A stretch of DNA of 64,000 nucleotides from Lewinellaceae bacterium SD302 (GTDB lineage Bacteria; Bacteroidota; Bacteroidia; Chitinophagales; Saprospiraceae). The stretch's first letter is position 1. Every line of letters begins with the position of its first letter. Below are positions 81 to 62,971 of the stretch, one piece after another. Position numbers and translations under genes: made by a program. Location of the stretch: NCBI GenBank assembly GCA_002591745.1, contig PDLQ01000007.1:62001-126000 (forward strand), in the 5' to 3' direction. Below the pieces are notes generated by a model. The model made no database searches. It was not told the DNA's origin and saw nothing but the letters and a program-made list of their open reading frames with translations.

Positions 81-1643
81 ATGAAATACCTGAAATTCCT
101 TGTATTTGCCATCATTCCACTAGTAGCAGCTTTTGTGTTTTCCACTCCCATTGCTACTTTGTTAGCCAAAATAGGGGGGACTGACAAAGTAGCAGTGGCT
201 CTGGCCCCGGCCCGGGAAATGCGGGGCGTATGGATGTCTACGGTACTGAATATTGATTATCCCCAGCGGCCGACGGTCGATCCGGCCACCCTCCGGTCCG
301 AATTTAAGTCTCAGTTGACACGGCTTAGAAAAATCGGTATCAACGCAATTTTTGTGCAGGTGAGGCCGACGGGAGATGCGATATATCCCTCCAAGCTTGT
401 ACCCTGGTCGAAGTGGCTGACCGGCCGCCAGGGTATTGCTCCGGGCTCGGACTTCGATCCTCTGGCCTATATGATCAAGGAAGCCCACGCTCAGGGAATG
501 GAGTTTCATGCCTGGATCAATCCTTACCGGGTTAGTATGGACCTGGAAACTTACAATCTGTCGTCCAAACATATTTATAATCAGCACCCGGAGTGGGTGA
601 AGCAGTACGGCCAGAAACTCTACCTCGATCCCGGTATCCCGATGGTGCAGGATCACCTGATGGAAGTGGTAGAGGAAATTTTGGTCAATTACCCGTTAAA
701 TGGTATCCACTTCGACGATTATTTCTATCCTTACCCCGAACCCGGGCAGTTTTTTCTTGACCAGGAATCCTTTGATCTCTACGGTACTCGTTTCGAAACT
801 AAAGAAGACTGGCGGCGGGACAATGTAAATACTTTCGTAAAACGGGTTTCCGATCTGATCGAACGGAAAAAGCCCTGGGTGAAATTCGGAATCAGTCCGT
901 TCGGTGTCTGGCGCAACAAGAATCGTGACCCCAATGGCTCCGATACCAGGGCCTGGGCCACGAGCTATGACGACCTTTACGGAGATGCGCTCGGGTGGGC
1001 GGCCAATGGTACGGTAGACTACCTGGTGCCCCAGCTTTACTGGAACATCGGCTTTGAAGTGGCCGACTACGCCCACCTGGTAGAGTGGTGGACCAGCAAC
1101 GTCAACTACCGTACCAAACTCTACGTAGGGCACGCAGCCTATAAAGTAGGTAACAACCGCGAACTGGCCTGGAATGACCTGGAGGAAATCCCCCGCCAGA
1201 TCGACTTGAATCGCCGTAACAAACGCATTTCCGGAAGTATGTTTTTCAGTGCCAAATCATTACTGACCAGCCCCATTGGGCTTGATGCGCGCCTGAAGGA
1301 TATTTACGTGGATCGTCGCCTGGTACCAGAACAACCAGATGCCCCCGGAGCCCGCCCGCTGAGCCCGAGACTGGGCAAGGTGAAAGCGACTGAGCGCGGT
1401 CAACTATTGGTATGGGATGTGGAAAAGGCCGTGCCCCAGGATGATCTACCTTACTACTTTGCTATCTACCGTAAGATGGAGGAAAGCGAACCCTTTGAGT
1501 TGATTCACGTCACGCCTTTCGGTCAAAATTGCCGCCGATTACACTTTTACGACGAAGAAAGTACTGGCGGTACACCGATCTACGAGGTGAGAGCAGTGGA
1601 TCGTTTTCACCGGGAGAGTCGTACTGATGAGCTTTTACCTTAA
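81..1643 (+). CDS. GHL10 (DUF187) family glycoside hydrolase-like protein, DigH/YddW-like
   Basis: Predicted exported 520-residue hydrolase of the glycosyl-hydrolase-like 10 family. E. coli DigH (YddW) of this family cuts peptidoglycan glycan strands stripped of peptides; the same role here is inference. The family core starts near residue 45 (REMRGVWMSTVLNIDYPQ) and includes FHAWINPYR and NGIHFDDYFYPYP, whose acidic residues line the barrel in relatives. The C-terminal 90 residues look like a fibronectin-type beta domain. I start at the ATG at 81 because it opens a clear signal peptide (MKYLKFLVFAIIPL); the frame is open back to base 15. Two copies of the dispersed GCTACTTTG motif lie in inverted orientation in the codons just after the signal peptide. 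Family call firm, substrate unknown. Confidence 0.8.
   Translation: MKYLKFLVFAIIPLVAAFVFSTPIATLLAKIGGTDKVAVALAPAREMRGVWMSTVLNIDYPQRPTVDPATLRSEFKSQLTRLRKIGINAIFVQVRPTGDAIYPSKLVPWSKWLTGRQGIAPGSDFDPLAYMIKEAHAQGMEFHAWINPYRVSMDLETYNLSSKHIYNQHPEWVKQYGQKLYLDPGIPMVQDHLMEVVEEILVNYPLNGIHFDDYFYPYPEPGQFFLDQESFDLYGTRFETKEDWRRDNVNTFVKRVSDLIERKKPWVKFGISPFGVWRNKNRDPNGSDTRAWATSYDDLYGDALGWAANGTVDYLVPQLYWNIGFEVADYAHLVEWWTSNVNYRTKLYVGHAAYKVGNNRELAWNDLEEIPRQIDLNRRNKRISGSMFFSAKSLLTSPIGLDARLKDIYVDRRLVPEQPDAPGARPLSPRLGKVKATERGQLLVWDVEKAVPQDDLPYYFAIYRKMEESEPFELIHVTPFGQNCRRLHFYDEESTGGTPIYEVRAVDRFHRESRTDELLP
149..168 (+). repeat. dispersed GCTACTTTG motif, copy 1
   Basis: One of 21 copies of consensus CAYTGCTACTTTGNNAGYCA (the NN may be one base). 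In the DigH-like gene, codons I-A-T-L-L-A. Core 153-161. Confidence 0.85.
178..197 (-). repeat. dispersed motif, copy 2
   Basis: Core 185-193. Inverted partner of copy 1, 23 nt between cores; the pair could form a hairpin in the mRNA. Confidence 0.85.
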
Positions 1644-1741
1644 CGGGGCAATATCAGTTGAGGGGCAACCAAAAATTATTAACTTACAAAAAGTGACGGC
1701 GTAATATTTCAACGTCTAAAGCACGTACTAAACCTACAATC

Positions 1742-2425
1742 ATGCAAAACTTTAAAGCCTACGTTTTCAGTTTTCTTTTCCTGGCGATGATCGCTTTAGC
1801 CGGTACTCAGGTACACGCTCAGGTAACCACCACTCAGATGAGTATGAGCCAGGGTAATCACCCGGCCATGACGCTCGAACTACCCGGCGCGGATGCCAAA
1901 ATGGTGGAAAAGATGTGGGTCGACTACACCAAGGACGAAATCCGCAAAAGCAAGACCAAGAAAGACCGCAAAAGCAAGGAATACCAAACCCTCAACGTTG
2001 AAATCCCCGGCGTCAGCAAGGGATCGGCAGTAGATATGTACGCCAAGGTGAACGAGCGGGGTAACGGTAGTGAACTGATGGTATGGATCGGCTCCAACGA
2101 CGGCTGGATCAGCCCCGACGAACTACCCGGCCGCTACGTGGAAGCCGAAAAAATGCTGATGCGTTTTGGCCTGGAAGTCAGCCGTGCCCAGATCGAAATC
2201 ATGGTCGAAGCCGAAGAAGACAAGCTCGAAGACCTTGAGAAAGAATTGGAAGACCTGCGTCGTGACAAAGAAAAATTCCTGAAGAACATTGAAAAGGCCA
2301 AGCAGGAAATCGCCGATAACGAAGCGGCCATTGAAACCAATGCTCAGCAGCAGAAGGACCAGGAAGAAGCCATTGAGGAGCAGCGCAAAACCGTGAATCA
2401 AACCCGGAAAAAAGGCGATTTTTAG
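1742..2425 (+). CDS. secreted coiled-coil protein of unknown function
   Basis: I do not recognise a family. The 227-residue product begins with a good signal peptide (MQNFKAYVFSFLFLAMIALA, cut after VHAQ), so it should be periplasmic or surface exposed. Residues 30-150 form a small mixed domain rich in Lys and Asp; residues 155-225 are a strongly charged heptad-repeat coiled coil made of Glu, Lys and Gln. It lies 98 nt after the hydrolase and is followed by a hairpin terminator, so it may be the last gene of a two-gene unit. Real gene by its codon use and signal peptide; function not assignable. Confidence 0.75.
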   Translation: MQNFKAYVFSFLFLAMIALAGTQVHAQVTTTQMSMSQGNHPAMTLELPGADAKMVEKMWVDYTKDEIRKSKTKKDRKSKEYQTLNVEIPGVSKGSAVDMYAKVNERGNGSELMVWIGSNDGWISPDELPGRYVEAEKMLMRFGLEVSRAQIEIMVEAEEDKLEDLEKELEDLRRDKEKFLKNIEKAKQEIADNEAAIETNAQQQKDQEEAIEEQRKTVNQTRKKGDF

Positions 2426-2474
2426 TATGAGCAGATGAATCAGTGATTTAATCATTTGATGATTTGATGTTTGG

Positions 2475-2508: not shown

Positions 2509-2547
2509 TCATTTTAACATTACCTTATTTTATTATTCAATCATTGT

Positions 2548-5101: not shown

Positions 5102-5115
5102 TGACTTGGTGAGCG

Positions 5116-5239: not shown

Positions 5240-5246
5240 ACTCCTT

Positions 5247-6748: not shown

Positions 6749-6767
6749 TGGCTTCAAAGTAGCAGTG
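6749..6767 (-). repeat. dispersed motif, copy 3
   Basis: Core 6755-6763; short-spacer form (GCTACTTTGAAGCC), 44 nt before the tail-anchored gene start at 6710. Confidence 0.85.
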
Positions 6768-8708: not shown

Positions 8709-9374
8709 TTAGCCCGCTACCTCCAGATCCTCAAAAAAGGTATCCAACTCATCGAAGTCTTTGAAGCCGACTTTTTCCTCACTGCCGCCGCGAACGGAGA
8801 AGCCCGCAAGTTCCGGGTAGTCTGCCTTGATCGCGGTCGGCAACCGGCCTTCAATTTCCAGATATACGGATCGGGATTCTGATATGGATTTTAGATCTTC
8901 CAGGGAGAAGGGGTGGCCCTCCGCCAGGTCTTGCCAGGTGATGCCGCCCTTGGTAAAGTTGAGGACAAAGTGGGTGGCAATGGATTCGTATGACTGCAAA
9001 GTAGCAATGTGATCATCGAGGCTGGAGTACCCCTCTACCGGCAACTCGACAAAAATCGGAATGCCCAGCGGGCCCAGGATGGAGGTTGCCTGGTCAGGAC
9101 CGAAAACACTATCTACCTGCACGGCATCCAGTTGCAGGCTTTCGAGAGTCTGGGGGCTGAGGCTACCAGCCTCGATTCTGGCGGGTAAACCGGCATCGAG
9201 TTCTCCGACGATCCCGGGACCGGTGATCCACTCACGGAAAGCATTTAGTTCATGCACGGAGATGCCGGAACCGGGGCTCAGGTCGAAGCCGAGCCAATCG
9301 ACTTCCCAGGCGGCAAAATAACGGGCATCGGTCAGGTGGGTAACGGCCGATGCTTTGACGGTAGCTTTCAACAT
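8709..9374 (-). CDS. TrpF-like (phosphoribosylanthranilate isomerase-like) protein, probably not catalytic
   Basis: A 221-residue protein with the outline of a TrpF beta/alpha barrel: a first strand followed by THLTDARYFAAWEVDWLGF, an internal LDAVQVDS strand and IPIFVELPVEG. In true TrpF the first strand ends K-x-C-G with a catalytic Cys; here the line reads KASAVTHL and no Cys is present. The C-terminal phosphate-binding GG region is also weak (VRGGSEEKVG). No other trp gene is near. I therefore read it as a degenerate or repurposed paralogue. It carries one dispersed-motif copy in frame (ATLQS) and another 21 nt upstream of its start. Confidence 0.5.
   Translation of the reverse strand: MLKATVKASAVTHLTDARYFAAWEVDWLGFDLSPGSGISVHELNAFREWITGPGIVGELDAGLPARIEAGSLSPQTLESLQLDAVQVDSVFGPDQATSILGPLGIPIFVELPVEGYSSLDDHIATLQSYESIATHFVLNFTKGGITWQDLAEGHPFSLEDLKSISESRSVYLEIEGRLPTAIKADYPELAGFSVRGGSEEKVGFKDFDELDTFFEDLEVAG
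8991..9009 (-). repeat. dispersed motif, copy 4
   Basis: Core 8997-9005, short-spacer form, inside the TrpF-like gene (A-T-L-Q-S). Confidence 0.85.
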
Positions 9375-9394: not shown

Positions 9395-9414
9395 CACTGC
9401 TACTTTGATAGCCA
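9395..9414 (+). repeat. dispersed motif, copy 5
   Basis: Core 9399-9407, just upstream of the TrpF-like start, pointing away from it. Confidence 0.85.
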
Positions 9415-9654: not shown

Positions 9655-12600
9655 ATGACCAAATATTTATTGAATTTTTATTTACTGGTCCTGTTGGCAG
9701 GATACGGTAACGCGCTATCCGGCCAGGATTGGGTGTATGACTTCCGTACGTTTAACGTAAGGAGCGGATTGCCGCATCGTAATGTAAAAACTGTTTTTTG
9801 CGACCGCGACGGATTAATCTGGGCAGCTACAACTTTTGAACTCAGCCGATTGAGCGGCGGTGATGTTCGGGTATTCAGAAGGCAAGAACTGGAGGATGCG
9901 GTCAACAACATTAAGGTGATCACTCAAGACGGTAGCGGTCATTTATGGTTATGGGGAGAAAGGGGATTATATGTTTTCGATATTGACCAGGAGAAGGCAA
10001 CCTTGATCGATTCTACGATGCGGCCACCGATGGGCCTGAACGGAGGCTTGTACAAATACGCACTGCAGTTGAATGACGGCAGCGTAGCTTTTAACTACGG
10101 AGATGAACCCCAGTTACTGATTGGTCGGAACGGGGTGGCTGAAAAGAAGGTGACTTTGCCCTACGCCAAACCCTTTCATCTGCTGGCTACCAGTCTGAAC
10201 GGTGAAAATATCTGGGCCCGATCGGCGACTAACCTGATCCTCATGGACCGGTCCGGAAAAGAGGTCGAGCGTCATCAATTTCCACGATTGGGTAAAATCA
10301 AAATGGTCAGTCCATTAAATGGAAATCAACTTTTAGTCTTTAGTGAGGACGTAAGGGAGGGGCGGCCTCCAATGCTGTTACTCTTTGATGGTGAAGGTGG
10401 TGTGGAAAATCTCAGTCGGAGCCGGGAAATGGGTGCCCTTACCAATGTGTTCTTTGAAAAAGACAAGAACGTATTCTGGCTCGAATACCAAGACCATTGG
10501 GAACTTCAGTCCCTGGGAGGAGAATTCCTGCTCCGTATTGAAAACAGTGGCCGGGGGGGAAACTTCATGTCGGATACCAATTCTTCCTGGACCTGGGTCA
10601 CCGGGAAGAATGGCAGTATCTGGCTGGCCACCGAGAGGGGGGTGGTTCGTTTTTCCTCCGACCGGTCTCGTTTTCCTGTTTACTTCAACAGTGGCGACCG
10701 GGGTAATCCCTCCGAAGGTTATTCTATTCGCGGAATCTGGAGTGATGGAAATAAGATCGTTGCTTCCGCCGAACTCGGTGGCGTTGTCTCCTACGATTTA
10801 GACAAGGATGAGGAAGGTTTGTTTGGGCTTAGCCGCCGACGTTATATCGCCGGCAGGGGGCTACAAGAGCGTATGGACTACTCCTTGCTTTCGGATTACC
10901 GGGGGTTACTGCTAGACCAAGATGGGCGCCATCTATGGTTGGGGCACCAACGGGTAGTACTTAAATATGACCCACTCAGCGAACAGTACGAAGCTTATCC
11001 GCCAGCTTTTAGCTACGATGTTGAATTTGGCATCAATCCCTGGTGTTTTTATCAATTGGTAAACGGAGATGTGTTGGTAGGAGCCCAGCCGGGTTTGCAC
11101 CAGATCCTGGCGGGTGAAGATTCTCTAAGGCGCCGGATTGTACCTCCACCCTTTGAAGCAATGAATGAGGCGGCGATCTATCAGATAGAAAGCCTGGAAG
11201 ACGGGCGAATCATCTACGCAACTTCACGGGGCTTATTCCTGAGCGACCGGGCTGGTGTCATTACCGATTGGTACCATAGCCATAGCGACTATAGTCATTT
11301 CCTGGCCCACGATCACATCTACGGTCTATACCAGACCCCCGGTGGACAGCTGTGGCTGGCTACCAACGGAAGCGGGTTGCTGCTGTTCGATCTGGAGAAA
11401 GGAGAAGTCGAGCAATTCACCCAGCGCGAAGGACTGGTCGATGACGTTATTTATGCTGTTTACGAAGATCAGTTCAATGCTCTCTGGTTGCCCAGTGACA
11501 ACGGACTGATGCGAATGGACACGGCTTCCGGCGAAGTAAGAACGTACAATTTTGGTGATGGTCTGCCCTCCAATGAATTTAACCGCACGGCTCATTTTTT
11601 TCTGGAGAAAAAACAGTTGCTTTATTTTGGAACGGTAGATGGTTTGGTAGTCGTCGATCCGGCTCGCTTTGTAGCCGATCAGTCAGGATATTCGCCTACC
11701 GTACAGTTATTGGAAGCTCGCAAAAAAGAAGCTGAAGCGGCCTCTTCGAAATTGATTACCGCCCAGGTACGTCAGGATTCCCTGATCACGATCACGCCAC
11801 AGGACGAATACTTTCAAATCATCGTCGCTTTACCCGATTTTCGGCGATCCCATAGAATTTTTGAATATCGAGTTGACAATAAACACTGGCAGCGAATGAT
11901 TGGAGATGAACTTCAGTTAAGTCGCTTCGATTACGGAATGCATTCGCTGGAGGTCAGGGGGAAACTGGCGGGCGGTATATACTCCGAACGACCGTTGCGG
12001 TTACAGTTTTTCGTTGAAAAGCCGATCTGGTACCGTTGGTATTTCATGTTGGGAATACTGTTTTCTGCGGGAGGGTTTACAATGGCCGGTGTCTGGGGCT
12101 ATACGCAAGCGTTGCGGCGCTATCAACGAGAGCTGGAAACCCGTATCAGTACTGCGACGGCTCAACTAGAAAAGGATCGCAACCTGATCCAGGCGCAGGC
12201 CGAAGAATTGGCGGAAGTGGACCGAATGAAAACCCGCCTCTTTGCCAATATCTCCCACGAGTTACGAACCCCTTTGACACTTATAATGGGCCCAATCCGC
12301 AAATTGCGCGGCCGAAGTTATCTAACGGCCGAGGATGATGATTTTCTGCGTTTGGCTGAAGACAATTCCTCAGAATTGCTGGATACCATTAACGCCATTC
12401 TCGAACTGGCCAAATTAGACGTAAAGGGTATTCCTCACCAACCCGTGCCAACCGATCTGAGGGAGCTGGGGCGGGCCTGTGTGGAAAAGTTTCGGGAGAA
12501 AGCTAGCCAATCGGGTGTTTCACTTGAGTTTGATTATTCCCCTCCACCCACCAAGGCGGATCTGCTCCTACTCGATGGTAGAAAGGTTACGACCGTCATC

Positions 12601-13737
12601 AACAACCTTTTGGCCAACGCCTTGCGCTTTACCCCCAAGGACGGACAGGTACAATTGAAAATCAGGGTAAATGAACGGGTTCTCATAACGGTCAGTGATA
12701 CGGGGGCGGGCATCCCGGAAGACGAACTACCACACCTGTTCGATCGGTTTTATCAGGCTAATGATTCGGCCGTAAAATCTGAGGGAAGTGGGATCGGGCT
12801 AGCCCTGTGCCACGAACTTGCGGAACTCATGAAGGGCAGTATCGGAGTAGACAGTGAACCGGGAAAAGGGAGTGTTTTTACCCTTGAACTCCCCCTGGAA
12901 TTCTCGAAAGATGTCGTCATCTCCGCCTCGGAAGGGACCACTGGAATTGTCAAAAAGGTTAGCAGTGGTAATCACACTTCTGAGAAGCCCCGAATTTTGA
13001 TCGTTGAGGACAATTTGGGGATGCAGCAACTGCTGCGCCTGCTCCTGAAGAACAAATATGAACTGGAGGTAGCAAATCAAGGCATAGAAGCGCTGCATAA
13101 GTTGAATGAGCCGGCAACCGCACTTCCTGATTTGATCATCACCGACCTTATGATGCCACTAATGGATGGTTTCAGCCTGGTGGAAAAACTTAAGAATAAA
13201 AGTCACTTCCGCAAAATTCCGATCATCGTACTTACGGCCCGTAACTCCCTGGATGATCGTCTGAGCGTGCTGCGCTACGGTATTGATGATTATTTGATCA
13301 AACCTTTCGACGAGCTGGAATTACTCACCAGAATCCAACGCCTGATAACCAATGCCAAGGAAAGGAGAGAACCGGTAAAAGGCGAACAGGAATTGACTAA
13401 GCCACAAACTGCCGCAGAACCTGAGTGGCTGCTGGAAATGGAAAATTTCGTCGTCGAGCATTTAGCGGACAGTCGCCTCAGCGCTGCTTTTTTAGCAGAA
13501 AATTTTTACGTCAGTCCCCGTCAATTACAGCGACGATTAAAAAAGGAAACCGGGCTTTCCACCGGAGCCTATATCCGGGAGGTCAGACTGAATCGAGCGC
13601 TTGCGTTTTTAGCCAGCGGGGAGTACGCGACCGTCAAAGAAGTTTCCGCCGGAGTAGGATTTCGTGATCCTGAATATTTCTCTACCGTTTTCCAAAATCG
13701 CTTTGGTCGTCTACCCTCGGATTATAAACTTGTTTAA
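9655..13737 (+). CDS. hybrid two-component system (HTCS) sensor kinase / AraC regulator
   Basis: A 1360-residue one-piece signalling protein. After the signal peptide (MTKYLLNFYLLVLLAGYGNA) come about 700 residues of periplasmic two-bladed propeller (Reg_prop repeats such as LWLATNGSGLLLFDLEKG), a Y_Y_Y domain, one membrane helix (about 800-820), HisKA with the phospho-His in ANISHELRTPL (about 868), HATPase (DTGAGIPEDELPHLF, GSGIGLAL), a receiver with Asp in IITDLMMP (about 1164) and conserved KPF, and a C-terminal AraC helix-turn-helix. HTCS proteins sense glycan oligosaccharides and activate uptake and degradation genes. The nearby GH16 glucanase makes a beta-glucan signal plausible. Start chosen at the ATG opening the signal peptide, 31 nt after the terminator. 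Confidence 0.93.
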   Translation: MTKYLLNFYLLVLLAGYGNALSGQDWVYDFRTFNVRSGLPHRNVKTVFCDRDGLIWAATTFELSRLSGGDVRVFRRQELEDAVNNIKVITQDGSGHLWLWGERGLYVFDIDQEKATLIDSTMRPPMGLNGGLYKYALQLNDGSVAFNYGDEPQLLIGRNGVAEKKVTLPYAKPFHLLATSLNGENIWARSATNLILMDRSGKEVERHQFPRLGKIKMVSPLNGNQLLVFSEDVREGRPPMLLLFDGEGGVENLSRSREMGALTNVFFEKDKNVFWLEYQDHWELQSLGGEFLLRIENSGRGGNFMSDTNSSWTWVTGKNGSIWLATERGVVRFSSDRSRFPVYFNSGDRGNPSEGYSIRGIWSDGNKIVASAELGGVVSYDLDKDEEGLFGLSRRRYIAGRGLQERMDYSLLSDYRGLLLDQDGRHLWLGHQRVVLKYDPLSEQYEAYPPAFSYDVEFGINPWCFYQLVNGDVLVGAQPGLHQILAGEDSLRRRIVPPPFEAMNEAAIYQIESLEDGRIIYATSRGLFLSDRAGVITDWYHSHSDYSHFLAHDHIYGLYQTPGGQLWLATNGSGLLLFDLEKGEVEQFTQREGLVDDVIYAVYEDQFNALWLPSDNGLMRMDTASGEVRTYNFGDGLPSNEFNRTAHFFLEKKQLLYFGTVDGLVVVDPARFVADQSGYSPTVQLLEARKKEAEAASSKLITAQVRQDSLITITPQDEYFQIIVALPDFRRSHRIFEYRVDNKHWQRMIGDELQLSRFDYGMHSLEVRGKLAGGIYSERPLRLQFFVEKPIWYRWYFMLGILFSAGGFTMAGVWGYTQALRRYQRELETRISTATAQLEKDRNLIQAQAEELAEVDRMKTRLFANISHELRTPLTLIMGPIRKLRGRSYLTAEDDDFLRLAEDNSSELLDTINAILELAKLDVKGIPHQPVPTDLRELGRACVEKFREKASQSGVSLEFDYSPPPTKADLLLLDGRKVTTVINNLLANALRFTPKDGQVQLKIRVNERVLITVSDTGAGIPEDELPHLFDRFYQANDSAVKSEGSGIGLALCHELAELMKGSIGVDSEPGKGSVFTLELPLEFSKDVVISASEGTTGIVKKVSSGNHTSEKPRILIVEDNLGMQQLLRLLLKNKYELEVANQGIEALHKLNEPATALPDLIITDLMMPLMDGFSLVEKLKNKSHFRKIPIIVLTARNSLDDRLSVLRYGIDDYLIKPFDELELLTRIQRLITNAKERREPVKGEQELTKPQTAAEPEWLLEMENFVVEHLADSRLSAAFLAENFYVSPRQLQRRLKKETGLSTGAYIREVRLNRALAFLASGEYATVKEVSAGVGFRDPEYFSTVFQNRFGRLPSDYKLV

Positions 13738-14743: not shown

Positions 14744-14763
14744 CGACTAACAAAGTAGCAATG
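14744..14763 (-). repeat. dispersed motif, copy 6
   Basis: Core 14751-14759, between the membrane-protein gene and the glucanase stop. Confidence 0.85.
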
Positions 14764-16464: not shown

Positions 16465-16484
16465 CACGGCTACTTTGTTAGTCA
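16465..16484 (+). repeat. dispersed motif, copy 7
   Basis: Core 16469-16477, 63 nt upstream of the glucanase start, pointing away. Confidence 0.85.
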
Positions 16485-20262: not shown

Positions 20263-20282
20263 CGCTGCTACTTTGTTAGTCA
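20263..20282 (+). repeat. dispersed motif, copy 8
   Basis: Core 20267-20275, in the pncB to NUDIX-gene gap; faces copy 9. Confidence 0.85.
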
Positions 20283-20366: not shown

Positions 20367-20385
20367 GGACTTCAAAGTAGCAATA
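20367..20385 (-). repeat. dispersed motif, copy 9
   Basis: Core 20373-20381, short-spacer form, ending 2 nt before the pncB stop codon end; inverted relative to copy 8, 97 nt between cores. Confidence 0.85.
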
Positions 20386-24099: not shown

Positions 24100-24119
24100 T
24101 GGCTAACAAAGTAGCAAAG
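24100..24119 (-). repeat. dispersed motif, copy 10
   Basis: Core 24107-24115, 96 nt upstream of the quinoprotein start. Confidence 0.85.
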
Positions 24120-27575: not shown

Positions 27576-28358
27576 ATGTCTACCAGAATCTATCTATTCC
27601 TCCTGCTGCTTTTCTTCGTAGCTTGTTTACACGCACAGACCGAACCGGCCGAACGGGAAGTTTCTATAGAAGGAATCGAGCACGTTTCCATTCGAGTCAA
27701 TTATTCGTCGGTCTATCTCAAATCCGGCAACACTGCTACTTTGAAGTCAGAACATATCGTCAAAATCGATGGAAAAGACCAGCCCGACCTTAGAGAACTG
27801 GACATCCGGCGGGAAGGAAAAACCCTCTACGTGGAAGAGCTGAAGCCCACCGTTGACTTACTGGAAAAGCGCTACCCGGAAGGCTTTCAGTCAGAACGGG
27901 GAAACGTCGTATTTGGCAAAAGTGTGGTGGAGATTGAGAAAGGCGACGTTCCACGAAGTACGCTGGAAACCAATCTAATCATCACCCTGCCAGAGAGTGT
28001 AACGGTGGAAGTAAAAACCGTTTACGGTAGCATTACGGCCCGTGACATTGGCGGACTCACCCGCGCTTACGCCGAGTATGGTTCGCTGGATGTGCATATT
28101 AGCAAAATGGTGAGGCGAAAAATGAAACTAGAGAGCCAATACGGTAAAGTCGACCTGAGTCTGCCCGTTCAGTTCAATGCCGATCTGCTGCTCAGGACAG
28201 AGTACGGCTCACTTTATACAGATCTGGATATAGCCGTTGACGCTGACGCCAGCCGGCAGGGAGATTTTCTGGAAGAACTGGTCGGCCAACTGGGGAGTGG
28301 CGGTGAGCTGATCAGTTGTAGTGCGCCTTACGGAAATGTTTACCTCAGGAAGTTGTAG
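27576..28358 (+). CDS. secreted DUF4097-type adhesin-like protein, second copy
   Basis: A 260-residue protein with a signal peptide (MSTRIYLFLLLLFFVACLHA) and the same solenoid strands as its neighbour (VEVKTVYGSITARDIGG, MKLESQYGKVDLSLP, LLLRTEYGSLYTDLD, YGNVYLRKL), so the two are diverged tandem duplicates. FFVAC could be read as a lipobox, making it a possible lipoprotein. It carries one dispersed-motif copy in frame (NTATLKS). Its 3' end overlaps the converging permease gene by 14 nt. Confidence 0.75.
   Translation: MSTRIYLFLLLLFFVACLHAQTEPAEREVSIEGIEHVSIRVNYSSVYLKSGNTATLKSEHIVKIDGKDQPDLRELDIRREGKTLYVEELKPTVDLLEKRYPEGFQSERGNVVFGKSVVEIEKGDVPRSTLETNLIITLPESVTVEVKTVYGSITARDIGGLTRAYAEYGSLDVHISKMVRRKMKLESQYGKVDLSLPVQFNADLLLRTEYGSLYTDLDIAVDADASRQGDFLEELVGQLGSGGELISCSAPYGNVYLRKL
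27731..27749 (+). repeat. dispersed motif, copy 11
   Basis: Core 27735-27743, short-spacer form, in the second DUF4097 gene (T-A-T-L-K-S). Confidence 0.85.
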
Positions 28359-30953: not shown

Positions 30954-31929
30954 AATTGGTAGGATTTAGGACCGCTACATCATCGATATTCTCCGGCCCG
31001 ACTTGCTGAATGAAGATGTCGTTCAGGGAAGGCAGAATTTCCTGAAAAGTCTGAATTTTTGCATTGGTAGCGAGTAAATCGCGCAGCATGTCATTACTGT
31101 CTTGCCCTGTTCCCATGGCTACTTTGGCAGTCCAACTATTTATTTCCCCTCGGTTTTTGGCTAACAAAGTAGCAGCGTATTTTTCGAGCAGTGCGCTCGG
31201 TGGCTCCCCCTCTACGGTCACCAGGAATTCGTTGGTCCGGAACTGGCGGCGGATATCGGACAGACGCCCTTCCAGCACGTTCTCGCCCTGGTTGATGAGT
31301 ACGATATACTCACAAAGTTCTTCCACCTGCTCCATGCGGTGAGTGCTGAAAATGATGCCGGTGCCTTTATCGCGGAGTTTCAGGATCTCTTCCCGCATCC
31401 GGGTGGCGTTCACCGGGTCCAGGCCGCTAAAGGGTTCGTCCAGAATGAGTAGCCTCGGTTCGTGGATGACGGTGGCGATGAACTGCACTTGCTGCTGCAT
31501 CCCTTTGGAGAGTTCTTCGACCTTCTTATCCCATTGGTCTTCCAGTTCGAAGATGGTGAGCCATTCGCGGGCGCGATCGGTGGCCTTGCGCTTGCTCAAG
31601 CCTTTGAGTTGAGCGAGGTAGAGCAGCTGTTCACCGACGTACATTTTCTTGTAAAGCCCCCTTTCTTCGGGCAGGTAACCGATCTGGGTGGGATGATAAC
31701 TACTTAGCGGTTCGCCTTCGAAAAAAACGGTGCCGGCATCCGGGTGGGTAATGGTGGTGATCATCCGGATGATGCTGGTCTTGCCCGCTCCGTTTGGGCC
31801 CAACAGACCGAGGATGGCATCCGGCGGCATGGTGAAGCTAACGTTGTTTACGGCCACTTTATCACCGTAGTTCTTCACGAGTCGGTCGAGGCGTAATATT
31901 GGCGAGTTATTTGAGTCAGAGGCGTACAT
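30946..31929 (-). CDS. ABC exporter ATP-binding subunit, NatA-like
   Basis: A 327-residue ATPase: Walker A GPNGAGKTS, Q-loop, signature LSKGMQQQVQ, Walker B LLILDEPFSG and switch FSTHRM. The last 100 residues form the DUF4162 domain usual in NatA-type proteins. This C-terminal domain holds two inverted dispersed-motif copies whose codons read AATLLA and WTAKVAM. It powers the permease encoded downstream (8-nt overlap). Confidence 0.92.
   Translation of the reverse strand: MYASDSNNSPILRLDRLVKNYGDKVAVNNVSFTMPPDAILGLLGPNGAGKTSIIRMITTITHPDAGTVFFEGEPLSSYHPTQIGYLPEERGLYKKMYVGEQLLYLAQLKGLSKRKATDRAREWLTIFELEDQWDKKVEELSKGMQQQVQFIATVIHEPRLLILDEPFSGLDPVNATRMREEILKLRDKGTGIIFSTHRMEQVEELCEYIVLINQGENVLEGRLSDIRRQFRTNEFLVTVEGEPPSALLEKYAATLLAKNRGEINSWTAKVAMGTGQDSNDMLRDLLATNAKIQTFQEILPSLNDIFIQQVGPENIDDVAVLNPTNYA
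31114..31133 (+). repeat. dispersed motif, copy 12
   Basis: Core 31118-31126, in the ABC ATPase gene, antisense to it (codons A-K-V-A-M). Confidence 0.85.
31158..31177 (-). repeat. dispersed motif, copy 13
   Basis: Core 31165-31173, in the same gene in sense (A-A-T-L-L-A); inverted relative to copy 12, 38 nt between cores. Confidence 0.85.
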
Positions 31930-34692: not shown

Positions 34693-35831
34693 CGGGGTAA
34701 GGTAGGGAGTACGGCGGCCTCCACAATCTTCAGAAAGGCAGCACTGGTAATGTCAGCCGAAAAACGCTGGCGCGCTAATTCGTAGCTGGCCCGGCCCATA
34801 TTAGCACGTTCTTCGGCGGAGCTATCGATAATGGCTTGCATGGCATTCGCCAGCGATCGGACGGAGCGTGACTCGATCAGGTAGCCATTTGAGTGAGGCC
34901 CGGTGCGGATCAATTCACGGCAACCAGGAACATCGGTGACGATCATCGGGCGACCGGTAGCCAATGCTTCTGCTCCGGCAATGGAGAGTCCTTCACGGTA
35001 ACTGGGTAATACAAAGGCGTGGCAGTTGGCCAGTAGCGGTCTGACGTCAGATACCGTCGGTTGGTAGGTAACGGTCGTCGCGCAGCCAAGTAGTTGCTGA
35101 CCGTGTTGGTTCACTGCTTCTATGTTAGCCATAAACTCTGCCTCCCGGATCACTTCGGGGTTCATAGCTTGTAAACTTCCGGCGATGACGAGCTTTAATC
35201 TCTGCCCCTGACCAATCAACAGTTTCGTAGCGTTGAGTAATTCGATGAGGCCCTTATCCCGTAAAATCCGACCCAGAAAGAGAAAGGTCGGCCCTTCATC
35301 AGTTACCGCTGGAACCGGGCTGTGCTGAAAATAACCCAAGTCTACCCCGGAACCGTTGATACGCGCTGAATTCGACTGGTCTACGATATTACGTTCCAGG
35401 AAGATGCGGCGGTCTTCGTCGTTATAGAATATGGCTTTATGTACGCCGGCCAATCCCTTGCGGTAGAGCCACGGCACCAAAGTTTGGTTGCGCCAGCCAC
35501 CGTGCAGAAAAGTGTAGCCTAATCCGGTAATGACGGCGAGATAGGAAATTCCGCTTCGCCGCGCTACAACCCCGCCGAAGATGTTGGGCTTGATGGTGAA
35601 ATGAACCACCAGGTCCGGCGATAGCTTACGGTAAACACGGCGCATTTCCCGCATACAGGCCAAGTCGTTAAAACCGTTTCTACTGCGTGGCGCCAGGCGG
35701 ATCAGTGGATGGTGGTCGCTACCGGTCAGGGCTTCCAAATCCTTTAAGTGCTTATCAGTTGGTGCAGCGGTGCGTACCACATATCCAGCTGCCAACAGCC
35801 CTTCGATCCAGGGGCGGCGGTAATGGACCAA
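34689..35831 (-). CDS. glycosyltransferase family 4; true start probably upstream at a non-standard codon
   Basis: A GT-B glycosyltransferase of 380 residues from the first normal start codon, a TTG. PTFLFLGRILRDKGLIELLNA opens the donor domain; PSYREGLSIAGAEALATGRP is the EX7E nucleotide-sugar motif. The first beta-strand of the family, usually KILLVAN followed by a loop, is encoded just before that TTG (SILLVANSTWNL, 35834-35864), in frame and without a stop. No ATG, GTG or TTG exists there; the ATC at 35877-35879 is the most plausible start. A sequence error is the other explanation. Coupled to the methyltransferase by a 4-nt overlap. Confidence 0.83.
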   Translation of the reverse strand: MVHYRRPWIEGLLAAGYVVRTAAPTDKHLKDLEALTGSDHHPLIRLAPRSRNGFNDLACMREMRRVYRKLSPDLVVHFTIKPNIFGGVVARRSGISYLAVITGLGYTFLHGGWRNQTLVPWLYRKGLAGVHKAIFYNDEDRRIFLERNIVDQSNSARINGSGVDLGYFQHSPVPAVTDEGPTFLFLGRILRDKGLIELLNATKLLIGQGQRLKLVIAGSLQAMNPEVIREAEFMANIEAVNQHGQQLLGCATTVTYQPTVSDVRPLLANCHAFVLPSYREGLSIAGAEALATGRPMIVTDVPGCRELIRTGPHSNGYLIESRSVRSLANAMQAIIDSSAEERANMGRASYELARQRFSADITSAAFLKIVEAAVLPTLPR

Positions 35832-37160: not shown

Positions 37161-37179
37161 TGGCTTCAAAGTAGCAAGG
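37161..37179 (-). repeat. dispersed motif, copy 14
   Basis: Core 37167-37175, short-spacer form, 59 nt upstream of manC. Confidence 0.85.
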
Positions 37180-40107: not shown

Positions 40108-40126
40108 TGACTTCAAAGTAGCAATG
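40108..40126 (-). repeat. dispersed motif, copy 15
   Basis: Core 40114-40122, short-spacer form, only 13 nt before the ATG of the SprB-like gene. Confidence 0.85.
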
Positions 40127-47042: not shown

Positions 47043-47062
47043 CATTGCTACTTTGTTAGCCA
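47043..47062 (+). repeat. dispersed motif, copy 16
   Basis: Core 47047-47055, just downstream of the TPR gene stop. Confidence 0.85.
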
Positions 47063-52426: not shown

Positions 52427-53536
52427 CTAGCTTTTTGCGTGAAATCTCTCCAATAAAATTTTCGTAATCCGCTCTGCCGCCTTCCCATCCCACAAGGGAG
52501 GAATGGTCCCTTTTTTCTCAAAGCCTTCCAGGATCATCCCCACCTCCGCCATCACCCGGTCCGGATCCAGGTTCTGCATCAGGATATTGGTGCCCAATTC
52601 TACGGTGATCGGTCGCTCGGTGCTGCTGCGGAAAGTCAGGCAAGGGACCTGCAGGTAAGTCGTTTCTTCCTGAATACCACCGCTGTCGGTAATGATTAGC
52701 CGGGCGTTATCCATGAGGTGCAGGAATTGCAGGTAACCCTGGGGTTCCAGAATGTGCAAATTCTCGGTGGATTCCAGTTCGTCGTACAGACCAAATTTCT
52801 TGAGGTTGTTTTTCGTACGGGGGTGCATGGGGAAGACTACTGGCAAGTGCGCACAACTCCGCCGGATGATGTCCATGATGCTAAGTAATCCGGCTTCATT
52901 GTCCACGTTCTGCGGCCGGTGCATGGTCATCAGTATATACGTCTTGGCAATGAGACTCAGCTCCGTCAGCACACTCTCTTCGGTGGCTTGGTGACGGAAG
53001 TGGATCAGTGAGTCGATCATCACGTTACCCACCAAATGAATGCCCTTGCTCAGGGTATTTTCACGTGCCAGATTAACCAGCCCGCTGTGCTCGGTCACGA
53101 AGTGGTACTGGCAAATACTGTCGGTCACCACCCGGTTGATTTCCTCCGGCATTTTTCGGTCGCCGCTACGGAGTCCGGCTTCTACGTGGGCCACAGGTAT
53201 ACCCATTTTTGTGGCTACCAAAGTAGCAGCGCTGGTGGCGTTCACATCGCCGACAACCAGTACTAAATCAGGCTTTTCTTCTTCCAGAACGGCTTCGAAT
53301 CTGAGCATTACGTTGGCCTTCTGGTAGGTATGACTGCCACCCCCGATACCCAGGTAATGATGTGGTTCCGGCAGCCCCAATTGGTTGAAAAAGATATCGC
53401 TCATCCGGGCATCGTAGTGCTGGCCGGTATGTACGATCCGGCTGTCGATCTTACCCGAGGCCACAAAGGCCCGATGTAGTGGAGCCACTTTCATGAAGTT
53501 AGGTCTTGCGCCTACAACGGAAATAATCTTGATCAT
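52427..53536 (-). CDS. wecB: UDP-N-acetylglucosamine 2-epimerase (non-hydrolysing)
   Basis: A 369-residue cytoplasmic enzyme interconverting UDP-GlcNAc and UDP-ManNAc for surface glycan synthesis. VVGARPNFMKVAPL, GQHYDARMSD, HVEAGLRSGDRKMPEEINR and TDSGGIQEE carry the active-site residues. It holds a dispersed-motif copy read in frame as AATLVA, at a helix where relatives have other small residues. It follows the 53651-64000 operon on the same strand after 114 nt. Confidence 0.95.
   Translation of the reverse strand: MIKIISVVGARPNFMKVAPLHRAFVASGKIDSRIVHTGQHYDARMSDIFFNQLGLPEPHHYLGIGGGSHTYQKANVMLRFEAVLEEEKPDLVLVVGDVNATSAATLVATKMGIPVAHVEAGLRSGDRKMPEEINRVVTDSICQYHFVTEHSGLVNLARENTLSKGIHLVGNVMIDSLIHFRHQATEESVLTELSLIAKTYILMTMHRPQNVDNEAGLLSIMDIIRRSCAHLPVVFPMHPRTKNNLKKFGLYDELESTENLHILEPQGYLQFLHLMDNARLIITDSGGIQEETTYLQVPCLTFRSSTERPITVELGTNILMQNLDPDRVMAEVGMILEGFEKKGTIPPLWDGKAAERITKILLERFHAKS
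53212..53231 (-). repeat. dispersed motif, copy 17
   Basis: Core 53219-53227, inside wecB (A-A-T-L-V-A). Confidence 0.85.
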
Positions 53537-53597: not shown

Positions 53598-53617
53598 CAC
53601 AGCTACTTTGCTAGTCA
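53598..53617 (+). repeat. dispersed motif, copy 18
   Basis: Core 53602-53610, upstream of wecB, pointing away. Confidence 0.85.
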
Positions 53618-55641: not shown

Positions 55642-56417
55642 TCGTTCGGGAATTCTAATTTGACGCGCTTCAGTTTTTGATCCGCCTCGGCCAGCAGTTG
55701 CTCGTCCAGCTTCAGACTGAAAGCCAGGTAGTCGATCCCCAACCGATAAATTCGGTAGTGATTAGCCAGGAAGCCTTTGGCGGCCATCAGCTCCTCGTCC
55801 GAGAGGTGGTGGAATTCAAAAAGGATTAGGCCGGGCCGGTATTTTTTCAGGTCTAGTTGCGACAGTACTTTCCAATCATAACCCTCACAGTCGATGTGCA
55901 GAATATCGATGCTTGTCACCGTTGTTTGGTGCAGTAGCCCGGGCAGCGTTATTCCTTCCACCTCCATGGTTTCTACGAAGGGGGTCAGCTTTCCGTCCAG
56001 GTGGGTAGTCAGGTGATCACGGTTGAAGGAGCCGAGTTGATCGTACCAGTAAGGAAGCTCGGGGTAGGCTTCTTTGGCGGCCCCGGTCACGTAATAGAAG
56101 GGCATCCGGCTACCGTCGTTGATCGCCACATTGGCGAAGCGAAAGCGGCTTTCTTGCGGGTAATTTGCCTTTAGCTTTGCAAAGATATAGGGGATGGGTT
56201 CTACGAAAAGGGCTTCCCATTTTGGCTGGCAAAGTAGCAGTGCGTGCAGGGGATCACCAGTTTTACCGTCATTAGAACCTATTTGCACTACCGAAGCATC
56301 CCCGCCCGCGTAACAGCGGTTGAACCAGTAATCCGGGTTGGTGGCCAGTTTGTGGCGGGGCGGGGTCGTCATCCTACGGTATTCCCGCCGGATCTTATTG
56401 ATGATCCTCTTAAGCAT
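55638..56417 (-). CDS. FkbM-family methyltransferase
   Basis: A 259-residue SAM-dependent O-methyltransferase. VVQIGSNDGKTGDPL is motif I (about 42-56), then FVEPIPYIFAKL and DILHIDCEGYDWKVL, the FkbM core. Members methylate hydroxyls of sugars or natural products. It carries a dispersed-motif copy in frame (HALLLCQ). Coupled on both sides (8-nt overlap with GT1, 4-nt with GT11). Confidence 0.87.
   Translation of the reverse strand: MLKRIINKIRREYRRMTTPPRHKLATNPDYWFNRCYAGGDASVVQIGSNDGKTGDPLHALLLCQPKWEALFVEPIPYIFAKLKANYPQESRFRFANVAINDGSRMPFYYVTGAAKEAYPELPYWYDQLGSFNRDHLTTHLDGKLTPFVETMEVEGITLPGLLHQTTVTSIDILHIDCEGYDWKVLSQLDLKKYRPGLILFEFHHLSDEELMAAKGFLANHYRIYRLGIDYLAFSLKLDEQLLAEADQKLKRVKLEFPNE
56223..56242 (-). 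repeat. dispersed motif, copy 19
   Basis: Core 56230-56238, inside the FkbM gene, read in a different frame (L-L-L-C-Q). Confidence 0.85.
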
Positions 56418-60700: not shown

Positions 60701-60918
60701 TTGACGGTAATTTCAGTTTCGGAAATACGGAAGCCGTCTTCGGTTATGCGCAGTCGGCTACTTTCACTTGCAGCCAGGGTTTTCCGCAGGCTGCGGTATA
60801 GCAGATCACCGTTGACCTCTCCCCGCCAGTGGTAGGCGAATGCCATATTGTTCACGGGGCTGTCCGGAAAAATCTGCTGACCGGTCAGGACCAGTTGCTG
60901 ACTGTGGGTGAGTTGCAT
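57799..60918 (-). CDS. nonribosomal peptide synthetase module C-A-PCP without thioesterase
   Basis: A 1039-residue single module. C domain about 1-430 with intact NQHHLITDGWG (about 126); A domain about 440-940 with YTIYTSGSTGRPKG (about 590), NLYGPTEAG and GRVDNQIKLRGFRIEL; PCP with phosphopantetheine Ser in FFSLGGDSLMAIK (about 984). Aligning to EntF by eye gives specificity residues DVWHFSLIEK; EntF for serine reads DVWHFSLVDK. So serine or a close relative is likely, with E instead of D unusual. No thioesterase or reductase follows, so release needs another enzyme. ATG at 60918 is chosen over the TTG at 60924. Lies 8 nt after the carrier-protein gene. Confidence 0.9.
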   Translation of the reverse strand: MQLTHSQQLVLTGQQIFPDSPVNNMAFAYHWRGEVNGDLLYRSLRKTLAASESSRLRITEDGFRISETEITVNRLIFTQETDPSAAADAYVLDDCRQPFALDGPLCTASLLEVTPEHFIVYLNQHHLITDGWGKAIQFDYLYATYRAAMGSGPLPEPLAKFSDYAKERAEAKIAEPQARLEAQKHWRQKLEALPTPAPIYGHLNPTLASQSVRIKVSLSTSQTKALAELIERPEFRSWSRELSCFNVFATTLFAWLSRSSGHRHLSIGTPAHNRLSPGHRRTPGLFIELFPLVIDLESAETFSSLYQKVSAECMSFLRQAKPGSSVIELGKGFNVLLNFISQPLVPADASGHSAEWLHNGHSEPAHHLRLQIFDFNRAGRFTLAFDLNESVFPAQFRQLAVDQFLELLDNFLAVPEDSVFAPTPMDLGRLAGQEPERVNYPDDQSLVDLFNKAAKQYADYPAIELDGGGKMSYAELDERSDQLADHLYRLGVRRETLVAVCLERSLDMSVALLGILKAGGAYVPIDPEYPAGRIEAIVSEAEIKLVVGTSDHASHFANFPQIQHCWLDREQRNILSADPRPVNTLPKAGDLIYTIYTSGSTGRPKGVMNQHRGVLNRLLWGQDTFQLKAGQDVVLQKTNYCFDVSVWELFWPLLSGAKLLFARPGGHKDNRYLEEVIGRGKVSVIHFVPPMLDTFLDGNPKSAHLTKVFCSGEALRSSTVSRFRQLMPGVELHNLYGPTEAGIEVTHWQMPTQGIIPASIPIGRPTANNQLYVLDEHDRPVTQGARGLLHIGGVQLAKGYHARPELTAEKFKMVTIPGYSAKVRLYDTGDAARWLPNGELEYLGRVDNQIKLRGFRIELGEIEYQLLAVDSVLQAVVLVLETEQVKKLVAFLRVNAQYDESEVRSSLQQSLPNYMLPVQYVLLDSFPLTPNGKIDRNELLASDVGQEVGKGGKADSVFEEMVIAEYAKLFQTEKLGVEDNFFSLGGDSLMAIKLTNRLQEAFELELSPAVVFRHPTPQTLAAHLESTIRRLLAEMEDEV

Positions 60919-60926
60919 CAGCAAGC

Positions 60927-61163
60927 TTATTTTTTGGCGTTTACCAGGCTTTCCATTGCCTCCACCGTAATGAAATTATCGATTGTCATCTCCTGAGGAG
61001 CGACTTTGATCTCAAACGTTCGTTCGATGAACTCGATCACACGTACCATGTCCATACTACCCAGTAAGCCGCTACTCAGCAAATCTTCGTCGGCCTCGAT
61101 TTGCAGGTCGCTCCGGCCAGCGTGGATGTCAGTTTTGATGAAGGATATAATCTGTTCTTGCAA
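60927..61163 (-). CDS. stand-alone acyl/peptidyl carrier protein
   Basis: A 78-residue carrier protein. Helix II begins after LLSSGLLGSMDMVRVIEFIE, with the phosphopantetheine Ser in GSM (about 36) instead of the usual DSL. It is placed between the adenylating enzyme and the NRPS, the position of PltL/CloN5-type prolyl carrier proteins in pyrrole pathways. Expressed with the NRPS. Confidence 0.85.
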   Translation of the reverse strand: MQEQIISFIKTDIHAGRSDLQIEADEDLLSSGLLGSMDMVRVIEFIERTFEIKVAPQEMTIDNFITVEAMESLVNAKK

Positions 61164-61336
61164 GAGGTAAAGTGTTTATTAATTGTTGGGGTTACAGTGT
61201 CGGTTGTCCAAGTCTCTGCATCAGCGGTTTCACTTGTCAACTCAAATGTCTGTTAACTTAACTACTACACGGAGCAATCAGCTTTTAGTTGTGTTTTTGA
61301 CTAACAAAGTAGCAAAGCTGATGAAAATACGAAATT
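61164..61336. other. 173-nt gap inside the NRPS operon
   Basis: Largest gap in the operon. It holds a dispersed-motif copy (61298-61317) inside a CAGCTTT/AAAGCTG inverted repeat (61281-61321), just after the adenylating gene stop. It may weaken or reset transcription. Confidence 0.4.
61298..61317 (-). repeat. dispersed motif, copy 20
   Basis: Core 61305-61313, between the adenylating enzyme and carrier-protein genes. Confidence 0.85.
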
Positions 61337-62971
61337 TCAGGGGGCTGAACGGTCAGTAGTCAGCAATGCCGCCAGAGCTTTTCGATCAACTTTATCCGAA
61401 CCAGTTCGCGGCAGCTGATCTTTGAAGTGGACAGTTTCCGGCACGGCGTACCAGGGTAATTGCTCACCCGCAAAGTTAAGCAATTCAGCCGCCTCAGGTC
61501 GATTGCCCTGCGGGGCAATGACAACTACTTCCAGCCGCAGGGTCGCTTCCTCACTCATGACCGGAATGACCACGGCCTCCAGAACAGCGGGGTGGGCCAA
61601 TAATCGATTTTCAACGGCGTTTATTTCCACCCGGTAGCCCCGGATTTTGAATTGTGTATCCTTGCGGCCCAGGAAGTGCAAAAGGCCTTTTTCGTCCAAC
61701 CTGACCAAATCACCGGTTCGGTAAAACTTTTGCTTTTCGTCAGAAGTACCGGCACCTTGATCCTGACCGACCTGGGGATCAGAAGAGCGGGGTCGAAACC
61801 AAAATGATCTTTTGTTCAACTCCGGTCGTTCAAAGTAGCCTTCCATCATTGTAATACTGCTAATCAGCAATTCTCCTTCACCGGTGCCGCTCAGTGCTTC
61901 GCCCTGGTCATTGAGAATCACCATGTCCGTATGGTTCCAGGTTCGGCCGATGGGAACAGGGGCGTCGGTTTTCGGTCGGCTGGGGATGGTATAGTAAGTA
62001 CAGACGTTGGTTTCCGCCGGGCCGTAGAGATTGGTCACCTTGGTTGCCGGACAATGGTCCATCAGGCGCCGAATGTATTTCGGGGCCCAGGGTTCACCGG
62101 CGTAGAAGACGTGACGCAGGGATGACCAGTCCTTGTTTTCGGCTTCCCCTTTTTCTAACGCTTGGGTCAGGGCCAGAGGAACGGAGTACCACATCGTTAG
62201 CTTTTCCTGAGCGACCAACTCACTCAGGCTGGCCGGGAAGATGGTCTGGGCATCCGTGAGAATGATACTGGTGGCACCTACCATCGGCACGCTGAAGTAA
62301 GCCGGAGTAGAAATATCAAAGTAGATCGGCGCGTGATTGCCGAAACGATCATTTTCGCTGATACCGAAAGTGTCCACCATTAACCTTGCGAAGCCCAGAC
62401 CGCTGCGGTGGGTATGCAACATTCCTTTGGGCTTGCCGGTACTGCCGGAGGTGTACATCAGATAAGCCGGGTCGGTTGCCCGTTGATCATCCAATCCGCT
62501 AAAGTTGGTGGGAGCCTGCCAGACGTCCGGCCAATCGAAGGTTTCCACCGTGGGCAGGCCCAGCCTTTCCGGTCCGATCCCGATGACCGTGCGAATTGAT
62601 GTCGCCTTATCTTGTCCCAGAACATGCTTTAAAGTTCGGGCCTGGCTTTTGTTAGACACTGCTACTTTGGCAGCCACCTCGCTGATCTGAAAACGGGTAA
62701 AGTTGATCGGGGCTCTTGGGTTCAAAGGCACGTAAATGGCTCCGGCCAGCATAATGCCGTGGAGAGCAATGACCGTTTCGATACTGCGGTTGAGGTAGAC
62801 GCAGACGAAGTCACCTCTCTTAACACCGCACGAACGCAGAGTGAAGGCCAACTGGCGAATTTTGGTAGCCAGTTCTCCGTAGTTAAGCGCTTCGTGACCG
62901 CACTTGAAAGCTGCTTTGTCGGGAAGCCGCTCGGCGCTTTGCAGGATCGCCTGGGGAAGAAGCTTGGTCAC
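61337..62971 (-). CDS. stand-alone adenylating enzyme, probably L-prolyl-AMP ligase
   Basis: A 544-residue member of the ANL superfamily: YLMYTSGSTGKPKGM (about 170-184), NLYGPAETN, YRTGD, GRKDTQFKIRGYRVE and the catalytic Lys of GSDKVDRKALAAL. Aligning the pocket by eye gives DIPYFAVVCK. The prolyl ligases of pyoluteorin, prodiginine and clorobiocin pathways read, as I recall, D-L-x-Y-L-A-L-V-C-K, so five to six key positions agree (Y, A, V, C, K, first D). It would load proline on the carrier protein. The gene overlaps the dehydrogenase by 4 nt. It contains one dispersed-motif copy (AAKVAV). An acyl-acid ligase is the alternative. Confidence 0.8.
   Translation of the reverse strand: MTKLLPQAILQSAERLPDKAAFKCGHEALNYGELATKIRQLAFTLRSCGVKRGDFVCVYLNRSIETVIALHGIMLAGAIYVPLNPRAPINFTRFQISEVAAKVAVSNKSQARTLKHVLGQDKATSIRTVIGIGPERLGLPTVETFDWPDVWQAPTNFSGLDDQRATDPAYLMYTSGSTGKPKGMLHTHRSGLGFARLMVDTFGISENDRFGNHAPIYFDISTPAYFSVPMVGATSIILTDAQTIFPASLSELVAQEKLTMWYSVPLALTQALEKGEAENKDWSSLRHVFYAGEPWAPKYIRRLMDHCPATKVTNLYGPAETNVCTYYTIPSRPKTDAPVPIGRTWNHTDMVILNDQGEALSGTGEGELLISSITMMEGYFERPELNKRSFWFRPRSSDPQVGQDQGAGTSDEKQKFYRTGDLVRLDEKGLLHFLGRKDTQFKIRGYRVEINAVENRLLAHPAVLEAVVIPVMSEEATLRLEVVVIAPQGNRPEAAELLNFAGEQLPWYAVPETVHFKDQLPRTGSDKVDRKALAALLTTDRSAP
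62657..62676 (+). repeat. dispersed motif, copy 21
   Basis: Core 62661-62669, inside the adenylating-enzyme gene, antisense to it (A-A-K-V-A-V). Confidence 0.85.

Follow-up and report, generated by a model that had tools for sequence, protein, structure and literature searches.

Across a 64-kb window of the Lewinellaceae bacterium SD302 genome (contig PDLQ01000007.1, positions 62,001 to 126,000; "the window" denotes this whole analysed stretch), a polar motif built on the 9-base core GCTACTTTG recurs both between and within genes. In the reading that we favour with moderate confidence, this motif is the tag by which a natural transformation system recognises DNA for uptake; the tag would be read on each strand separately, and its putative receptor is an outer-membrane barrel protein together with a DUF5689 protein. 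In the window, 22 copies of the core were counted, 9 on the plus and 13 on the minus strand, against a mean of 0.33 and a maximum of 3 in 100 dinucleotide shuffles and an expectation of 1.15 under a Markov-3 (third-order) background. The initial annotation of this stretch had the plus-strand count right but gave 12 minus-strand copies, hence a total of 21.

In the whole 5.48-Mb genome the core is present in 1,533 copies, about 280 per Mb, almost equally shared between the strands (770 + 763), whereas its reversed word, taken as a control, has only 80 (43 + 37). Such over-representation on both strands is that of the neisserial DNA-uptake sequences (DUS) and the Pasteurellaceae uptake signal sequences (USS). 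The core was found on seven of the eight contigs sampled at 9 kb or more, so that, as supposed from the window, the motif is neither at background nor confined to one region or element. Among 407 other genomes of the same order, 20 congeners included (two overlapping sets of 60 and 396, each of which also contains the present genome), none came near this count. The top count elsewhere was 228, versus 118 for the control, in G196, and the top density noticed was that of G398, with 171 copies in 4.7 Mb (control 32). A modest excess over the reversed word, far below that of the present genome, was seen in G341 (81 v 9), G371 (124 v 17), G056 (127 v 27) and G398 (171 v 32). The nearest congeners are distant, the best amino-acid identity being 74%, for a phosphomannomutase-family protein, and, in samples of 22-40 kb per genome, 10 of the 20 congeners had no tag of similar density. 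In the 40-kb sample of one congener (G013, loci L267-L268) the word ACCTGCGGCAG/GCGGCAGCGCC occurs 6-7 times. A single exact match to the motif in a viral contig of 41% GC, without further core copy, was taken as chance.

The longest core-free stretch, 25.6 kb (C60:29233-54845, loci L069-L070), is mostly a defence island, which encodes a TOTE conflict system, helicases including SNF2, an OLD-type ATPase/TOPRIM protein and a GmrSD restriction enzyme, followed by a pirin and an efflux pump. The next-longest measures 12.6 kb. A 14.7-kb stretch free of the strict motif forms carries ordinary genes and includes one near-consensus copy. The eighth contig, C90 (locus L065; 24.4 kb), whose first 20 kb have 33.6% GC and no motif, carries uvrB-like, multicopper oxidase (with secretion tail) and ApeA-like genes and is probably an assembly contamination.

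The anatomy of the motif was established on 1.03 Mb of the genome, taken in stretches and holding 289 core copies. The consensus reads CAYTGCTACTTTG-YY-AGYCA with a two-base spacer or CAYTGCTACTTTG-A-AGYCA with a one-base spacer, followed by an A-rich tract, and conservation begins about 11 bases ahead of the core start and ends 21 bases beyond it. In the first 424 kb, 79 of the 123 copies have the two-base spacer, mostly pyrimidines, and 35 the one-base spacer, nearly always A, leaving 9 others; by class, the full set of 289 comprises 182 long, 74 short, 15 near and 18 other copies. The consensus and both spacings had been correctly deduced from the window, where consensus flanks accompany 21 of the 22 copies, the spacer being of two bases in 15 and of one base in 6. 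Single-mismatch core words are at background (131 observed against about 133 expected, summed), and a slight tolerance, limited to the sixth base, is observed when the flanks are required. As controls, 200 kb each of Aggregatibacter kilianii and Rodentibacter caecimuris (Pasteurellaceae) were used, whose genomes hold 1,972 and 1,769 copies of the USS AAGTGCGGT. In the analysis run alongside them, single-mismatch words numbered 288 against 304.9 expected for the present core, and 56 against 55.3 and 92 against 62.4 for the USS in the two controls. In sharpness, the core is thus roughly on a par with the USS of Pasteurellaceae: it equals the first control and surpasses the second. The 12-mer DUS, counted as a further control in 274 genomes, was abundant in none of them (6 copies at most).

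Placement was examined with genes from a simple caller of our own. Of the 288 copies that could be placed, 150 are intergenic, in 12.5% of the bases, and 138 genic. The same kind of gene call puts 12 of the 22 window copies between genes and 10 inside them; the intergenic number given by the initial annotation thus stands, its genic number of 9 does not. The origin of genic copies was addressed by searching four congeners with a joined query of 26 peptides, a random draw from the 66 coding sites that are in one of the three common frames; keeping orthologs of at least 50% identity among 30 loci left 8 sites and 26 rows. All of these rows are free of gaps near the motif, and the motif itself is absent from all of them. 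At these 8 coding sites, a small sample, the motif arose in place by substitution, not by insertion, as is also the case for DUS and USS within genes. Amino-acid identity to the orthologs is 73/182 at the motif codons and 1,280/1,716 at the flanking codons, while the orthologs compared with each other give 140/238 and 1,807/2,244, indicating that the motif sits in freer places yet still cost extra changes. The genes concerned include RecQ, fumarase and a cellulose-synthase-like transferase (recognised from sequence, without a family search). Collectively, genome-wide abundance, strand equality, intergenic enrichment, USS-like core sharpness and origin by substitution support the likeness to DUS and USS that had been proposed for the window; the function of the motif itself we infer. 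Cyanobacterial HIP1, proposed alongside them, is a poorer model, HIP1 being palindromic and the present motif polar.

A further property of the motif is that its copies are spaced strand by strand. Successive copies switch strand in 204 of 281 cases, compared with 143 (sd 8) in shuffles, and this alternation results from exclusion between copies on the same strand. Over the 289 copies, same-strand pairs closer than 2 kb number 13 against 84.5 expected, whereas opposite-strand pairs number 97 against 83 (expectations summed). When only the long and short forms are considered (256 copies), 3 same-strand pairs are left, against 39.7 under label shuffling. The two forms also exclude each other, with 1 mixed pair on the same strand and 30 on opposite strands within 2 kb, which suggests one reader for both. 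The exclusion is partial at 2-3 kb (18 vs 41.7) and mostly lost beyond 3 kb, and same-strand gaps are fairly even, with coefficients of variation (CV) of 0.50 and 0.54. At distances below 250 bp opposite-strand pairs are over-represented, which an attraction of copies to intergenic gaps would bring about. In the window alone, alternation is not significant (13 runs vs 11.6, p 0.35). Since reading of double-stranded fragments would exclude on both strands, the restriction of exclusion to the same strand suggests that a single strand is what is read or carried.

This spacing is not that of the USS controls, although the USS is about three times denser than the present motif and the comparison is thus made at unequal density. 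USS copies do not alternate (86 switches of 166 vs 82.0 in one control, 81 of 152 vs 76.6 in the other), and their long-range spacing is strand-blind: pairs below 2 kb number 122 vs 140.9 and 103 vs 116.5 expected on the same strand, and 133 vs 136.5 and 119 vs 116.4 on opposite strands (expectations summed). At 100-500 bp, same-strand and opposite-strand pairs number 18 vs 28.3 and 16 vs 27.4 in Aggregatibacter, and 10 vs 23.4 and 20 vs 23.4 in Rodentibacter, so that USS may have a strand effect at short range.

Strand-wise independence combined with same-strand exclusion is also what would be expected of a signal for a one-directional motor. The motif could, in this respect, be Chi-like, read on the right strand by an AddAB/RecBCD-type nuclease-helicase that enters at a double-strand end, each strand then needing a spaced set of its own. 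Chi sites share the polarity and strand specificity of the present motif, but they are shorter, mostly G-rich and skewed to replication, whereas the long stretches examined here have no strand skew (C1 56/45, C60 36/41, C2 25/28; contigs whose positions relative to the origin are not known). Moreover, a 20-bp motif without enrichment in 20 congeners is unlike Chi, and per-site selection seems too weak to build up about 1,450 copies at the price of amino-acid changes. We consider this explanation unlikely, though it is the strongest of the alternatives. Fainter is the chance that the motif is a chromosome-architecture or nucleoid site, bound by a polar protein and spaced along each strand. The fairly even same-strand gaps and the genome-wide spread would suit such a site; its sharp core, the lack of enrichment in the 20 congeners, its absence from the 25.6-kb, mostly defence stretch and the protein changes at coding sites do not. 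A similarly small probability attaches to a tag for packaging (pac-like) or for the origin of transfer, which would belong to a gene-transfer agent or a conjugative system and act as a one-way start. Such a tag would be polar and would likewise spread by self-copying, but a one-way start predicts convergent exclusion at least as strong as the same-strand one, whereas in the range of 500-3000 bp the deficit of convergent pairs is mild (36 vs about 51.5 expected, with 52 divergent).

The intergenic enrichment and some close inverted pairs could point to a signal in transcription or in RNA, for instance a terminator or part of a promoter. The genic copies are, however, split evenly into 69 sense and 69 antisense; in the intergenic set, 50 of the 150 copies lie between divergent genes, 10 between convergent and 90 between co-directional ones, the last being oriented along the gene direction in 49 cases and opposed to it in 41, and the window has no Rfam match at gathering scores. 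This explanation is accordingly very improbable. Finally, an enzyme-inserted short mobile or REP-type repeat, for which the sharp core and the restriction to one genome among those searched could speak, is the least probable of all in view of the gap-free ortholog rows and of conservation limited to the bases immediately around the core.

The genome was also searched for a candidate uptake machinery. ComEC is found in all 21 genomes of the genus and is hence little informative. No convincing type IV pilus ATPase (PilB/PilT-type), as would accompany DUS or USS, was obtained with PF00437, the pilus ATPase family; secretins and pilins were not searched. PF00437 gives only 19-25 bit matches, in 20 of the 21 genus genomes. 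In the present genome the best of them, 24.9 bits, covers profile positions 139-221 of 370 in a 946-residue frame, putatively an excision-repair ATPase, and another, 22.5 bits, lies in a 636-residue frame. On the other hand, DUF5689 occurs in this genome alone among the 21, where one frame on the contig of the window contains it three times. The DUF5689 protein has 695 residues and, in our own reading, a lipoprotein-like start. Its gene (locus L049, 8514-10601) directly follows that of a 933-residue TonB-type barrel protein (L049, 5673-8474), whose CarboxypepD and plug matches are weak and below the Pfam cut-offs (28.2, 25.6 and 20.5 bits). A remote-fold search with DUF5689 gave RPA subunit 2 as the best PDB profile match, which is not significant (E 0.66). 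Furthermore, four HHH_3 stretches are present in one protein (C60:199581-200801), whose gene carries a near-consensus copy of the motif, so that ComEC is accompanied by a helix-hairpin-helix protein.

A similar set of genes has been described in Riemerella anatipestifer, which transforms although, according to the available excerpts of PMC8459023, no pilus homologs were detected there. Its transformation needs ComEC, DprA, ComF and RecA, and also DUF5689, carboxypeptidase-regulatory outer-membrane, helix-hairpin-helix and DUF1343 proteins (excerpts of PMC8459023). Judged by domains, a DUF5689 gene beside that of a carboxypeptidase-regulatory barrel is found here as well, and the pair would thus match two genes described as indispensable for transformation without a pilus in Riemerella.

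According to our reading of the motif as an uptake tag, sister cells would preferentially import DNA that bears it and recombine this DNA. A mutation creating a copy would then be copied into other cells, and copies would accumulate where the sequence can bear them. Such a self-spreading tag, aiding the transfer of its own DNA, would explain the abundance of the motif, its origin by substitution, its cost to proteins and its restriction to one lineage. The tag would act per strand: a second copy on the same strand within about 2-3 kb would add little, one tag per fragment being enough (saturation), which would result in exclusion, while a copy on the opposite strand would add to uptake. This pattern could arise if the tag is read in single-stranded form, or if the strand that enters is always the same one. 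The likely receptor would be the outer-membrane barrel and DUF5689 pair rather than a type IV pilus, and could feed the ComEA-like helix-hairpin-helix protein and then ComEC.

Several observations weigh against such a system. Known uptake tags work via type IV pili, and the best PF00437 match here stands exactly at the family cut-off. Long-range strand-wise exclusion is unexpected of an uptake tag and absent from the USS controls. Among the 256 long and short sites, 51 of the pairs below 2 kb are divergent (outward) and 27 convergent, an excess that is unexplained. DUF5689 is common in the phylum, being present in 170 of 395 sample genomes, this one included, and the gene pair and the motif are linked solely by their co-presence in one genome of one genus, to which many other genes are likely unique too. 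The prediction that DUF5689 genomes bear tags was followed up in 10 other genomes, at 28-40 kb each, chosen among the strongest DUF5689 matches. Barrel and DUF5689 genes are adjacent in 8 of them, but 9 of the 10 have no clear motif of such density in the sampled DNA, indicating that the gene pair does not imply a tag.

In G122 (loci L339-L358 and L329-L330), which is of the same order and has the same gene pair, an 11-mer unrelated to GCTACTTTG, CTTGCGTCGCA, occurs in 1,458 copies (738 + 720) versus none of its reversed word. Its same-strand pairs below 2 kb number 2 against 12.2 in shuffles, none of 2,000 shuffles being as low (81 listed positions). G122 is nevertheless not a clean second case, because 22 of 27 copies lie outside open reading frames (ORFs), conservation spans more bases (about 40), convergent pairs within 250 bp number 11, strand switching is not significant (46/80, p 0.08) and same-strand gaps are uneven (CV 1.02 and 0.93). 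The element may instead be an intergenic repeat family. A variant, CTTGTGTCACTCACTTGTAC, was also found in this genome. In another genome, G970, six plus-strand copies of ATG + AAATTCTTTCG extend over 6.3 kb beside the DUF5689 region (L337:1970-8277), as if related short genes began alike. A broader proposal, which we put forward only tentatively, is that Bacteroidota could have their own kind of self-DNA recognition, with a pilus-free machine of a TonB-type barrel and a DUF5689 protein, a tag read on one strand, perhaps in single-stranded form, of which each genome strand would hold a spaced set, and lineages inventing unrelated tags, that of G122 being a second.

Within the window, motif copies with the two-base spacer begin with an inverted pair inside a GHL10 glycosyl hydrolase-like gene, in sense at 149-168 (+; CATTGCTACTTTGTTAGCCA) and antisense at 178-197 (-). 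A second pair on opposite strands lies in an ABC ATPase gene, antisense at 31114-31133 (+) and sense at 31158-31177 (-). Three other two-base copies are genic: 53212-53231 (-), sense in a UDP-GlcNAc 2-epimerase gene (Pfam), for which the one ortholog compared is gapless and motif-free; 56223-56242 (-), sense in an FkbM-type methyltransferase gene; and 62657-62676 (+), antisense in an AMP-binding enzyme gene. The remaining two-base copies are intergenic, at 9395-9414, 16465-16484, 20263-20282, 47043-47062 and 53598-53617 on the plus strand and at 14744-14763, 24100-24119 and 61298-61317 on the minus strand. The one-base spacer is found in intergenic copies at 6749-6767, 20367-20385 (opposite in strand to 20263-20282), 37161-37179 and 40108-40126 (intergenic by our gene call), all on the minus strand, and in sense copies within genes without Pfam match at 8991-9009 (-; CAGTCA) and 27731-27749 (+). 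A bare core with neither consensus flank at 61831-61839 (-) is probably a chance match, and a degenerate copy at 35112-35131 (+), with two mismatches, both in the core, is possibly decayed. The window also encodes secretion-tail, TonB-receptor and carboxypeptidase-regulatory domains, in keeping with Bacteroidota, and, at 9655-13737, a large hybrid two-component regulator with propeller, kinase, receiver and AraC-type domains.

To our knowledge, the uptake tags described are those of Pasteurellaceae and of Neisseriaceae, and in both families uptake is based on pili. For Bacteroidota, no such tag was found among the open-licence papers listed in the searches, which does not establish absence from print. 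If the uptake reading is true, self-DNA preference would have evolved again in Bacteroidota with different machinery; the motif would then provide a sequence handle on the receptor that binds DNA in transformation without a pilus, and a tag that could be tried in making such bacteria genetically accessible. Strand-wise exclusion would, in turn, be a clear statistical trace of tag reading, which makes single- versus double-strand recognition directly testable.

Comparison with known systems shows both shared and distinct traits. DUS of Neisseria are short non-palindromic self-DNA tags that vary between lineages, and their sequence is other than that of the present motif. USS, flanked by A/T-rich tracts much as the present motif is followed by an A-rich one, also have a sharp 9-base core, occur on both strands and reach a similar copy number. 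However, USS show no alternation of strands and exclude each other only up to about 500 bp, whereas the present motif excludes over about 2-3 kb on the same strand. According to the available excerpts of PMC1939737, USS are located in both coding and intergenic DNA and uptake by H. influenzae is independent of tag orientation; even USS spacing, reported by Karlin, is cited there, while the paper itself finds evenness limited. USS uptake proceeds via type IV pili (excerpts of PMC7811141), and the DUS reader is the minor pilin ComP (excerpts of PMC3868556 and PMC12061091). The likeness to Riemerella comprises the DUF5689 protein, the carboxypeptidase-regulatory barrel, the helix-hairpin-helix protein and ComEC. 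In that genus, R. columbina DNA outcompetes foreign DNA (excerpts of PMC7965970), but an uptake motif is not established, the candidate repeats listed being A-rich and their function left open (PMC7965970, Table 3, in the part available). The present motif is thus set apart from known tags by a Riemerella-like gene pair, in a genome without a convincing pilus ATPase, and by its strand-specific spacing.

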